NCBI GenBank assembly: GCA_937921555.1
Contig: CAKZUV010000016.1
Coordinates: forward strand, 1-50,309
DNA from: an uncultured Saprospiraceae bacterium
Lineage (GTDB): Bacteria; Bacteroidota; Bacteroidia; Chitinophagales; Saprospiraceae
DNA length: 50,309 bases
Direction of reading: 5' to 3'
Shown: positions 1 through 44,202 of the stretch, one piece after another
How positions within the stretch are numbered: position 1 is the stretch's first letter
Layout of the letters: the number at the start of each line of letters is the position of its first letter
The notes under the pieces: model-generated
Seen by the model: the letters and a program-made list of their open reading frames with translations, nothing else
Told to the model about the DNA's origin: nothing
Databases searched by the model: none
Translations under genes and position numbers: made by a program

Positions 1-151
1 TGGCTACGAATAAGTCATTGATAACGTGGATCTTCTGCTATTTTTATTTCCGTAGCTACGGCTACGCAAAGAAAAATGAGCATCGTCCACAATATCAAGC
101 ACTTATCCTCGCCTTTTGTGAACATTCTTAAACAGCTTCTACTTTATTTCC

Positions 152-4239: not shown

Positions 4240-4734
4240 ATGGTAAATCTTCCCGTAGCATATTGTGCCTCTGCTTTTGGTATTTTTAAAATTACCGGAG
4301 ACGAAAATGGTATTCAGTCGATTCAACTGACTCCGAAAAAAGTATTACCAAAACAAGTGGTACCAGCGTCCTTGAAACAAGCTATAAGACAACTCACCCA
4401 ATACTTCAATGGTCGTCGGAAAGAATTTGATCTGAAATTAAATTTTGGAGACGCCCCCGCTTTCCACCAGGAAGTCTGGCAGGAATTAATGACCATTCCT
4501 TATGGACATACGACCAGTTATTCTGCGATCGCTAACACCCTGGGAGATGTCAATAAAATGCGTGCCGTCGGACAAGCCAATGGTAAAAATCCCATTCCTA
4601 TTGTTGTTCCCTGTCACCGCGTCATCGCCAAAAGCGGAAAACTGCAAGGGTATTATTATGGACTGGATATGAAAAGAAAATTACTGGAACTGGAAAATCC
4701 GTTGAGCTTTGCGGAGCAGGGGTCGTTGTTTTAG
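4240..4734 (+). CDS. ogt: Methylated-DNA--protein-cysteine methyltransferase
   Basis: This 164-residue suicide enzyme moves the alkyl group of O6-alkylguanine in DNA to its own cysteine. The acceptor is Cys125 in the signature PCHRV (124-128), preceded by the GNPxPIVV-like run and the helix-turn-helix region with YGHTTSYSAIA (88-98), and followed by GYYYGLDMKRKLLELE. The length fits Ogt/AGT without an Ada N-terminal domain. ATG at 4240 is the only good start. A folded repeat begins exactly at the stop codon (4733). It may be co-transcribed with hisIE, but the palindrome lies between them. Confidence 0.95.
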   Translation: MVNLPVAYCASAFGIFKITGDENGIQSIQLTPKKVLPKQVVPASLKQAIRQLTQYFNGRRKEFDLKLNFGDAPAFHQEVWQELMTIPYGHTTSYSAIANTLGDVNKMRAVGQANGKNPIPIVVPCHRVIAKSGKLQGYYYGLDMKRKLLELENPLSFAEQGSLF

Positions 4735-4786
4735 GAATGGCAAAAAGAGGAAGTATAGAATCGTATTTTATTTATTTAACATTCTT
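4733..4786 (+). repeat. 3'-end hairpin element, shorter copy
   Basis: This 54-base stretch starts inside the ogt stop codon and is nearly identical (2 differences in about 49 bases) to the reverse complement of 21464-21512. It carries AGGAATG, the purine-rich loop, TAGAATC and the T-rich arm ending ACATTCTT. Compared with the long copy it lacks one arm, as if deleted between two TTTGCC repeats. See the finding on this element. Confidence 0.8.
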
Positions 4787-4829
4787 TAGATTTTTTCAGA
4801 AAATATTTCTTCTAAAATTATAATATCTA

Positions 4830-21212: not shown

Positions 21213-21240
21213 TAGAAGCGGTTTAAGAATATTCACAAAA
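21213..21240 (-). promoter_or_regulatory. Promoter-like block shared with 114-141
   Basis: Read on the minus strand, this 28-base block matches 114-141 (plus strand) at 26 of 28 positions. It ends in a TTCTTAAAC-GCTTCTA core and continues weakly upstream. It lies 28 bases before the aldehyde dehydrogenase start. Confidence 0.55.
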
Positions 21241-21370
21241 AGTGACGGTAAGTCATTGTGCTTCATTTTTAAACAGCTTCATAAATAGTTTGGTTAAAAA
21301 AAATTGCAGCACAAAGGTATCAAAAAACTTCTTACGTTCTTTTCAGGTATTTAGTTGCTAAAGGACGTAG

Positions 21371-21409
21371 ACTAAAAAAGCAGAATAACCGTGTAAGTTA
21401 TCCTGCTTT
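21371..21409 (-). terminator. Intrinsic terminator of the propeller/barrel gene
   Basis: AAAGCAGAATAAC pairs with GTTATCCTGCTTT with one mismatch. On the minus strand the stem is followed by a T-run, so it ends transcripts from the gene at 21554-24592. Confidence 0.8.
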
Positions 21410-21463
21410 TCTGATAAACAGTATTCATCTGAAAATTAGCGGAAATGCCCGTGCTGCGAATTA

Positions 21464-21542
21464 AGGAATGTTAAATAAATAAAGTACGATTCTATACTTC
21501 CTCTTTTTGCCTAGAATCTGCACTTATTTATTTGCCATTCCT
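21464..21542 (-). repeat. 3'-end hairpin element, full copy
   Basis: This 79-base element folds with an outer imperfect stem (AGGAATG..AAATAAATAA with its complement near 21521-21542), an inner 7-bp stem GATTCTA/TAGAATC (21488-21494 and 21512-21518) and a 17-base loop. It sits 11 bases after the stop of the gene at 21554-24592. In gene orientation it reads the same way as the shorter copy at 4733-4786. Confidence 0.8.
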
Positions 21543-21553
21543 AAGCATTTTCA

Positions 21554-24500
21554 CTACCATCCGGGAATGATATTCAGTCCAAATACGCCTCTGGTATTTT
21601 TTTGAAACGGAATAGCGTAATAGGGTTCCACAATCAAAGCCCCAAAAACATTCACCCGCAACGAAACACCACTACTGAAAATCGGTTTTGGCGAAAGACC
21701 AGTGGCCTCACCGGTCAGGTCGCCAAATTCTGAAAAAGCTACACCACCGTCTACAAAAAAGGCCAGATCGCTAAACAGGAATTTTGACTTTATCAAAGAC
21801 AAACCTTCCGGTCCGGTAAAGGGCAGTCTTACTTCGAAACTTCCATGCAACAATTTATTCCCAATTAACTGATTGAAATTAATTTCATTCTCCTGCAAAG
21901 TCTGCCCGATATTGTTAAAACCATATCCCCTCACCCGCGTCGGATCACCTGCGTACAAAGCCGGTAAAGCATCCGCTCCTTCTCCGTAACGCGCATAATG
22001 GGTCGCCCGTACTGCCAGCGAAAATGGTTTCAGATATTGGTATTTTCTAACATCCAGCAGGGTAGAAAAGAATTTCACATCTCCCAGATACTGTTCTACT
22101 CCAATCCGGTAACGGTGCCCTTTTATCGGGGAGGTCACTCCAAAAACGGTGTTGTCTCCTACGAAGGCGGCACTGGCTGTAAAAAGATTCAGTGGTTCCT
22201 GTCTGAGTTCGGTTACTTCCCGGTCACCCACTCCAAGAAAACGTCCACTTAGATCATAAATGTACGGAAGGATTTCATTTTGAATAGAGAATCTGCGATA
22301 GTTAGCACCTGCCTCCAACCGTTGCGTTCGATTGAATGGAAGCTGGGCAAATACCCCACCACTATTCTGAAATAATCTGGTAATATTCAAATCTACCCGT
22401 TGTACTTGTATCTTGTCATCTCCGACCGTAATTTCGTCCAGCCGGGGAAAACCACTGAATCCGGAACGGGTCACCAGATGCGATAAATTAGCTCCCCAGG
22501 TAATCCTGTTCTTGCGATTTATATAAGTGACCTGACCGCTGAGATCTTTTAATTCACCATTGAGTGATACGCCGGCAAATAATTGATTATTACCCAACAC
22601 ATCTCCAAACAACATTTCTACACCACCTAATAACGCAGTGTTATTATTTAAACTATTTCCAACGCCGGCACCAACGCCAGCACTTCCGCCGACATAGTCC
22701 AGCTTAAATCTGGGTTTATAAACGCCTTCTTCTATCGCGTCTGCCGGTATTCTTGATAAACCATCCAGCCGATTTAAATTGGTATTTACTACGTCTACCT
22801 TCTCAGGGTTGGCGACGGGTAACAGCGCTGCTGCCATTTTTATATCATTATTTTTCACAGGCAACGAAAGCATGTCACTTTGTTTTGCCTGGAAAATAGT
22901 ATAGCGATTTTTATTAAAAACAGAATACAGAATCCGGTCTTTGCGCGTAGAAACACTCAGCGCAGGTGCCTGATGGGTAATCCCGCTGATACCGGTGGCC
23001 AGGTTGGTCATTTGAAAAATAGAGTCAGTAGCTGGCGCATAACGGTACATATTTCTGAAACCATCCCGGTTAGACAAAAAGATGATATTGCCTTCGTGAT
23101 CGAAAACCGGATTGAAGTTATCTGCTCCGTGAAATACTTTTAGATTTTTTTGTACTCCGGTCTCCAAATTTAAGGTCGACAAACCGTAGGTCCATTTTCC
23201 GTTGGTCCGTCCGTGTTGCAAACTGATTTGATCCGTACTGAACACCAATGTGGTTCCATCGGGAGACCACGCTGCGTGTAATTCGGAAGCCGGATCATTG
23301 GTAAGTCTGCTAACGGTATTCGATTTTAAATTATAAAGATATAAATCATTTTGTCCTTCGACCAGCGCTGATACAACAAGCGATTTACCGTCGGGAGACC
23401 AGGCCGGATTGGTAATCGCCGGTAGTCCGGGGATTGCTATCTCCTTTTCCGTTTTTCCATTTTTGATATCTTTTATGACCAGTCGGTTGGCACCTTTACT
23501 AACGACCACGTAGGCAAATTTCTTACTGTTGGGAGACCAGGTTCCGGCTGATTCCAGATAACTAAAATCGTCGATGTGACCATCTTTTTGAGGACTCGCC
23601 AGTTTTCGGATAATTTTACCCGTACGCGCTTCTGCCAGAAAGAGGTCCAGAGAAAAAAGATCTTTTTCGGAGAGAAAGACAACATACTTTCCATTGGGAC
23701 TCAATACGGGAGAGAGATTCATTTTTCCCGCATTCTCTTCGGATAACAAGCGCTTGCCAGTCGCGTTTGATTTATCGGCCAGATAAGGCTGGTAATTTTC
23801 TTTCAGGGTTTTCTGCCAGCGGTCACTCAGGTCTTCCAGGGTCGTACCCAATACTTTGATGGAAGCTGATTTCAGTCCTTCTTTTGCGGTTGTGGTAAAA
23901 AAAGGTTCAATTACCTCATCCCCATAAACTCCCGTCAAAAAAGCCCAGAATGCCTGTCCCCAGCGGTAGGGAAAATATTTGGAATTGTCCAGTTCTTTGA
24001 TGGCAGGAACGTCATCGTGCAGCACCGCGTCGCGCATCCACATGGCCGTGTGCGCATCCGAGCGTCCAATAGATAAATATTCGGCCAGTCCTTCTACCAT
24101 CCACAGTGGCAGATTTGCCAGATTACGCAACGAAGTACCTTTTCCGTTGAGGATCATATTGTACTGGAAAGCGTGTACCAGTTCGTGTCCTAAAACGTGG
24201 TGAGTCTGTTGGTTAGAATGGGTGAGTGGCATGATGACCCTGTTTTTCAACGCTTCGGTAACGCCACCCGTTCCGACACTGATATTGCCAGAAATGGCAT
24301 TGGTTTGTTGAAAGTCAGCGTGATTATTATAAAATATGAGTGGATTTTTTTCGGAGAAAGTATCTCTCAAAACGGCCTGATGCAGCCGGTACCATTGTTC
24401 CGTTTGCTGACTCAGGTCGATGATGGAACTATCATTTTTCAGGTAATGATAGATTTCAAAATTCGGGGTACTATGAACTTTAAAATCGAAGGTTTCGTAT

Positions 24501-24592
24501 CGTGGTTTATTTTGACCAAAATACTGCGCGTCGAGCTGACCGATTGAAAAAAAGCAGGCGATCAGGAAAATTACTCTTATGTTCAAATTCAT
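21554..24592 (-). CDS. Metallopeptidase-like / beta-propeller / outer-membrane barrel fusion protein
   Basis: This 1012-residue exported protein (signal 1-22, QLDAQ) has three parts. The N-terminal domain (about 30-250) carries HELVH at 136-140 with Glu167 in WMVEGLAEYLS about 30 residues later, a gluzincin-type zinc site. A TolB/PD40-type beta-propeller (about 280-600) follows, with repeated NGKYVVFLSE, PDGKSLVVSA, PDGTTLVFST and WSPNSKKFAY blades. The C-terminal region (about 640-1012) resembles the Omp85/surface-antigen barrel, with TRVRGYGFNNIGQ and the last strand TRGVFGLNIIPGW. The whole is likely an outer-membrane protein with a periplasmic or surface-exposed peptidase-like head. Whether it cleaves anything is not known. 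Confidence 0.85.
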   Translation of the reverse strand: MNLNIRVIFLIACFFSIGQLDAQYFGQNKPRYETFDFKVHSTPNFEIYHYLKNDSSIIDLSQQTEQWYRLHQAVLRDTFSEKNPLIFYNNHADFQQTNAISGNISVGTGGVTEALKNRVIMPLTHSNQQTHHVLGHELVHAFQYNMILNGKGTSLRNLANLPLWMVEGLAEYLSIGRSDAHTAMWMRDAVLHDDVPAIKELDNSKYFPYRWGQAFWAFLTGVYGDEVIEPFFTTTAKEGLKSASIKVLGTTLEDLSDRWQKTLKENYQPYLADKSNATGKRLLSEENAGKMNLSPVLSPNGKYVVFLSEKDLFSLDLFLAEARTGKIIRKLASPQKDGHIDDFSYLESAGTWSPNSKKFAYVVVSKGANRLVIKDIKNGKTEKEIAIPGLPAITNPAWSPDGKSLVVSALVEGQNDLYLYNLKSNTVSRLTNDPASELHAAWSPDGTTLVFSTDQISLQHGRTNGKWTYGLSTLNLETGVQKNLKVFHGADNFNPVFDHEGNIIFLSNRDGFRNMYRYAPATDSIFQMTNLATGISGITHQAPALSVSTRKDRILYSVFNKNRYTIFQAKQSDMLSLPVKNNDIKMAAALLPVANPEKVDVVNTNLNRLDGLSRIPADAIEEGVYKPRFKLDYVGGSAGVGAGVGNSLNNNTALLGGVEMLFGDVLGNNQLFAGVSLNGELKDLSGQVTYINRKNRITWGANLSHLVTRSGFSGFPRLDEITVGDDKIQVQRVDLNITRLFQNSGGVFAQLPFNRTQRLEAGANYRRFSIQNEILPYIYDLSGRFLGVGDREVTELRQEPLNLFTASAAFVGDNTVFGVTSPIKGHRYRIGVEQYLGDVKFFSTLLDVRKYQYLKPFSLAVRATHYARYGEGADALPALYAGDPTRVRGYGFNNIGQTLQENEINFNQLIGNKLLHGSFEVRLPFTGPEGLSLIKSKFLFSDLAFFVDGGVAFSEFGDLTGEATGLSPKPIFSSGVSLRVNVFGALIVEPYYAIPFQKNTRGVFGLNIIPGW

Positions 24593-43997: not shown

Positions 43998-44040
43998 ATT
44001 GTATTGTGGTTGTGCGTAGTATTTGGACGTAGTATCTGGA

Positions 44041-44172
44041 CGAGCAGTGGTTTGAGATTTGTATCTGGACGGGGACGTCCAAACAAACGTACGGACGAAC
44101 AGTGGCTTGTGGATTTGTATCTGGACGGGACGTCCAAACAAACGAATAACTGGACGGGACGTCCAAACAAAC
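44041..44172. repeat. Tandem repeat tract with GGACGTCC palindromes
   Basis: A 55-base unit (44041-44095) is followed by a second copy starting at 44096. Both hold ATTTGTATCTGGACGG and GGACGTCCAAACAAAC. A third short copy of the second half follows at about 44150-44172. The palindrome GGACGTCC recurs at 44073, 44128 and 44157. It lies at the 3' end of the exporter gene. Confidence 0.8.
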
Positions 44173-44202
44173 AAATGAACAAACGAATGAACAAAAAAAC
44201 AA

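Follow-up and report, generated by a model that had tools for sequence, protein, structure and literature searches.

The stretch of DNA analysed here (the window, 50,309 bp from an uncultured Saprospiraceae bacterium) carries two copies of a small folded repeat, both placed directly behind a gene. Copy 1 (21465-21541, + strand, GGAATG...CATTCC) lies 11 bases from the stop of a gene for a PD40 beta-propeller/outer-membrane barrel protein (21554-24592, - strand), whose 3' UTR also contains, beyond the repeat, a terminator-like hairpin (21380-21413, - strand). The 77 bp of copy 1 between its TAA triplets correspond to 79 bp in the count of the original prediction, which had been made from the letters of the window. 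It is bounded by terminal inverted repeats, GGAATGTTAAATAAATAA on the left (21465-21482, + strand) and, on the right (21524-21541, - strand), the sequence that reads TTATTTATTTGCCATTCC on the + strand, and is flanked by a target-site duplication TAA at 21462-21464 and 21542-21544. As RNA it folds with -28.9 kcal/mol (z = -8.0). Copy 2 (4734-4785, - strand, 52 bp) has one decayed end (CATTCT, one terminal base) and lies between two TTA triplets (4731-4733 and 4786-4788) at the end of ogt (4240-4734, + strand; PF01035, PF02870), which encodes an O6-methylguanine-DNA methyltransferase. In the stop codon of ogt (TAG, 4732-4734), TA comes from the duplicated target and the G is the first base of the element; judged by the flanking sequence, the stop before insertion was also TAG, so that the gene was left unaltered. 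Both copies are present as originally described, with 97.8% identity across 46 bp.

In a relative (G001), the syntenic region, whose flanking gene is 82% identical, is free of copy 1, which is to be read as syntenic absence only, as the non-coding DNA is too diverged for a clean empty site. Absent from the same relative is a second, unrelated MITE in the intergenic region of copy 1 (21215-21280, GAAGCGGTTTAAGAAT...ATTTTTAAACAGCTTC), with ends similar to those of an IS5-family element of the source genome. This second family, with GAAGCTGTTTAAGAAT ends, also occurs at window positions ~1-139 (- strand), where it runs off the contig edge, and at further loci of the source genome. Tandem repeats of 55, 29 and 12 bp are also present at window positions 44038-44199, where they are arranged around GGACGAACAGTGGCTTG / CTGGACGGGACGTCCAAACAAACAAATAA.

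The original prediction had suspected a dispersed family behind the two copies and proposed a search of the whole genome; this search revealed a MITE-like family of about 100 copies in the source genome, a number far from chance. The assembly (5.44 Mb in 403 contigs, many of them breaking inside the element) contains 86 sites matching the left core, 207 matches to the terminal repeat with up to three mismatches and 101 left ends with at most one mismatch. Most copies do not exceed 160 bp, and they have no coding capacity for a transposase. The majority of the full copies measure exactly 160 bp, with ends GGAATG...CATTCC and terminal inverted repeats of ~18 bp. An exact 3-bp target duplication flanks 52 of 64 candidate complete copies, mainly TAA/TAA (35) or TTA/TTA (15), and since the middle base of the duplications matches, a simple palindromic target is excluded. 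The family therefore combines terminal inverted repeats and target-site duplication with a short, non-coding and multicopy sequence, as expected for MITEs. Besides, an older 160-bp subfamily resembling those of sister species (AGGAATGTTGAATAAATAA end) still exists in the source genome (L263, 4762-4921, on contig C3). We also observed many solo terminal repeats of 19-35 nt that pass directly into host sequence, often at gene ends (among others at C2:1936, C10:4326, C39:5061 and C365:21150), for which no partner end was found nearby.

Compared with the 160-bp form, the window copies are truncated. In copy 1, 81 bp comprising the core and its surroundings are gone at a GCCT join (21509-21512, + strand), which is the same in five copies including this one; the 79-bp form, too, derives by deletion from a 160-bp parent. 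The suggestion that the shorter copy arose by deletion between TTTGCC repeats fits well, as TTTGCC is a direct repeat in the 160-bp form. The same applies to the other joins, GCCT in the 79-bp form and TCTGCA in a 78-bp form, each of which is a short direct repeat within the full element. At one orthologous site with the same flanks, a 165-bp form is found in G006 (L101) and the 78-bp form in G002 (L117), which means that this deletion took place in situ. A haplotype with A at position 21 and C at position 48 is frequent in the 78-bp form but rare among full copies (1 of 32), and such shared haplotypes suggest that some short forms have multiplied too. As core-less forms apparently moved, the core is probably dispensable for transposition.

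What both window copies have lost is the central 96-nt hairpin of the 160-bp form. Elements of the same genus are 74-91% identical, whereas those of other genera have only the middle in common. With a covariance model for these 96 nt, the core was detected in 105 of 248 genomes of the family, representing 61 of 112 genera, with up to at least 16 copies per core-bearing genome. Readable elements are mostly 158-163 bp long and have terminal repeats, often together with a TAA, TTA or TCA duplication, and G046 elements apparently use CTAG. The terminal sequences themselves differ across genera (GGAATG, GAAGCTG, GGGAACTC, GGCATTGTG, GGGAGCAAG), and an element outside the family (G481) ends in TACCAAATTAG. 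Searched as an exact pattern in genome contigs, the core gave no match; a looser pattern matched Saprospiraceae records and a single Sphingopyxis locus (L174). The latter (Sphingopyxis sp. KK2, 2898-2994) has the same core with GC-rich arms at 36 bits, and the superfamily is possibly much wider, as a GC-rich hit in G659 also suggests. Two peculiarities of the core may be mentioned here: in two species a GC-rich palindrome (CCTGCCT...GGCAGGCAGG) sits at the same internal-loop point (L021 1558-1580, on contig C320; L103 and L111 in G002), and at L128 (1278-1410), which adjoins a core-bearing element with another terminal repeat, ~37 nt are inserted in the apical loop.

The pattern of substitutions in the core points to a fold that is maintained as such. 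In a structure-free MAFFT alignment of 13 elements, we counted 32 cells with compensatory change compared to 9.8 in shuffles, and in 35 model-aligned elements, an alignment that leans towards the covariance model, 192 doubly changed cells compared to 54 in shuffles and 9-35 in slid controls. The mismatches are strand-biased, with 69 A-C against 16 G-T in the orientation analysed and 25 against 3 on the MAFFT alignment. An excess of A-C on one strand means G-U (or G-T) pairs on its reverse complement, and it is the reverse-complement strand that has the more stable fold in 34 of 35 elements (-33.8 kcal/mol on average, against -23.9 for the other strand), as well as in 13/13 and, outside the family, in 8/8. 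On this folding strand, the motifs read approximately AAGGC ... GGAGTTATGC-N3-GCATAATGA ... AACGCAG, and conserved unpaired motifs are retained in the internal loops. Compensatory change together with strand-biased mismatches points to a core that is probably under selection as a single-stranded fold, be it RNA or ssDNA. No credible match to the elements was found among the Rfam covariance models; a resemblance to integron attC sites was considered on general grounds and dropped.

Two other origins of the conserved pairing have to be weighed, both of which we regard as unlikely. The first is purely mutational. Quasi-palindrome template switching acts on long imperfect palindromes such as this element, and correction of this kind could keep the arms complementary in the absence of selection. 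However, it should also erase mismatched internal loops, which instead are among the conserved motifs, and it predicts no consistent excess of A-C over G-T, although this bias recurs from genus to genus and beyond the family. The second, to which we assign a similarly low probability, is that the core is conserved only through a recent spread of the elements between genera. This would agree with the patchy distribution and with the mere four other genomes matched in a phylum sample of 395, but the pairwise identity of the cores is only 63% while pairing persists, and the terminal repeats of different genera are largely unrelated at a length that stays near 158-163 bp. In addition, the searches made in plasmids, phages and viral contigs gave no match.

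With regard to the position of the copies, gene calls from a heuristic dicodon caller made for this analysis place 0 of 86 copies inside predicted genes, while 70% of the TAA/TTA sites are coding. The proposed placement near gene 3' ends is a real excess, and the family is neither confined to the two window copies nor placed at random: copies lie a median of 41.5 nt from a 3' end, random intergenic TAA/TTA sites 172 nt (p = 1.5e-9). Distances to 5' ends show no such difference (143 nt for the copies, 161 nt for random sites). The stop codon itself served as the duplicated target in 9 of 74 cases, compared to 3.7% expected (p = 0.002), and insertions of this kind do not change the protein. This strong enrichment together with the stable folds could argue for a functional 3'-end element, acting as terminator or mRNA stabiliser behind stop codons, and the two window copies, which indeed read in the same direction relative to their genes as had been predicted, present the same strand to the mRNA. 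We nevertheless consider such a function very unlikely. Genome-wide, the orientation relative to the upstream gene shows no preference (39 versus 35), and because of this randomness we reject the idea that the copies act specifically at the 3' ends of mRNAs. The window copies are also devoid of the conserved core. Furthermore, the propeller gene has its own terminator-like hairpin past copy 1, and G001 retains this hairpin although it lacks the element. An intrinsic terminator was rejected because no U-run follows the hairpin in the sequence and because of the missing orientation bias. Target choice and tolerance offer a simpler reason for the position, and we favour the view that these are harmless landing sites, even if the 3' excess without a 5' depletion is not fully explained by these two factors. 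The deletion series and the stop-codon insertions together illustrate how repeats can end up right behind genes without a role there, and the two window copies, short and located after stop codons, are explained as ordinary MITE debris.

Based on the length of the duplication, the target and the style of the terminal repeats, the element appears to have been mobilised by a transposase of the IS5/PIF-Harbinger type; this assignment concerns the probable mechanism and not membership. The 3-bp TWA/TNA duplication expected of a MITE derived from such transposons is present. In contrast, none of the IS5-family transposons we found shares the terminal inverted repeat of the window family: the IS5-family element of the source genome (DUF4096, DDE_Tnp_4) has GAGGCTGTTYAAAAAT ends without a match to GGAATG. 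No autonomous element with GGAATG ends was detected in the source genome, where four PF01609 matches and one PF13359 match carry other ends and where a multicopy parent could be collapsed in the 403-contig assembly. Likewise, a search with the IS5 protein in 60 relatives did not uncover GGAATG ends, and solo ends with their flanks had no partner end at transposon size.

That the repeats are instead of the REP/REPIN type and moved by a RAYT, i.e. a Y1 tyrosine transposase, is highly improbable: Y1 transposases occur widely in the family (187 of 248 genomes) and are weakly associated with the elements (92/105 versus 95/143, p = 1.6e-4), and the core hairpin is strand-specific like RAYT substrates, but Y1 transposition is not expected to leave the 3-bp target duplication present here, the core hairpin is near the Y1 gene in only 1 of 30 sampled Y1 loci, 13 element-bearing genomes, some with at least 15 copies, have no detectable Y1 gene, and the short tagged REPs (PMC3733652) are unlike the element. 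The REP membership considered in the original prediction is not supported.

Taking everything together, we are confident that the window repeats are core-less deletion derivatives of a MITE with a structured, probably selected core. The 160-bp parent is a non-autonomous DNA transposon that inserted at TAA or TTA targets, which were duplicated upon insertion. Its movement in trans is presumably due to a DDE transposase of the IS5/PIF-Harbinger type whose gene lies elsewhere or has since been lost. The shorter forms (79, 78 and 52 bp) arose by deletions that joined short direct repeats on either side of the palindromic middle, and some of them, judging from the shared haplotypes, were probably amplified. 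Intergenic copies persist, notably at gene 3' ends, where a TAA target can be the stop codon that is regenerated and where the first G of the element can likewise regenerate a TAG. In the intact element, the 96-nt hairpin core seems to be selected as a single-stranded fold, as covariation and strand bias imply, and our working guess is that it raises the survival or mobility of the copies, either by the handling of an ssDNA hairpin or by a role as RNA. A broader reading, which we put forward tentatively and with somewhat less than even confidence, is that a superfamily of ~160-bp elements within the Saprospiraceae, and sporadically beyond, is built around a functional single-stranded module whose fold and internal-loop motifs are retained by selection, with terminal repeats being exchanged to suit different transposases. 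As RNA or ssDNA, such a module would serve the element's own life cycle, and such a kind of MITE is not described in the literature searched.

In comparison with known systems, the element shares with GTAG/CGTC REPs and RAYT-mobilised REPINs that it is a dispersed palindrome, often near gene 3' ends, with a strand-specific fold, but it differs by its 160 bp, its target duplication, no tag being seen and the lack of a linked RAYT (PMC3733652). With the IS5 family and PIF-Harbinger-type transposons it has the 3-bp TWA/TNA duplication in common, in line with the discussion of IS5 subgroups and 3-bp Harbinger duplications (PMC12730594). The GAGGCTGTTYAAAAAT ends of the source IS5-family element resemble those of core-bearing MITEs of other genera (G026, G208, G244), whereas the GGAATG ends of the window family were not found on any IS5 element. 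The element is also similar to the bacterial MITEs, e.g. ERIC, Correia/NEMIS and RUP, which are likewise AT-rich, intergenic, multicopy sequences of 50-500 bp with terminal inverted repeats, target duplication and folded transcripts (PMC10969869). Unlike in usual MITEs, what many genera share here is the interior, conserved as a covarying and strand-specific fold, and it is the terminal repeats that diverge. In MITEs generally, the ends are the conserved part, and these elements are normally viewed as two ends with a disposable middle. In our case, the middle persists in dozens of genera among which the ends have been replaced almost completely, and its strand-specific compensatory evolution implies that non-autonomous elements may carry a functional structured nucleic acid. 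The full element is an unusual variant of a MITE, conserved in its interior rather than at its ends.
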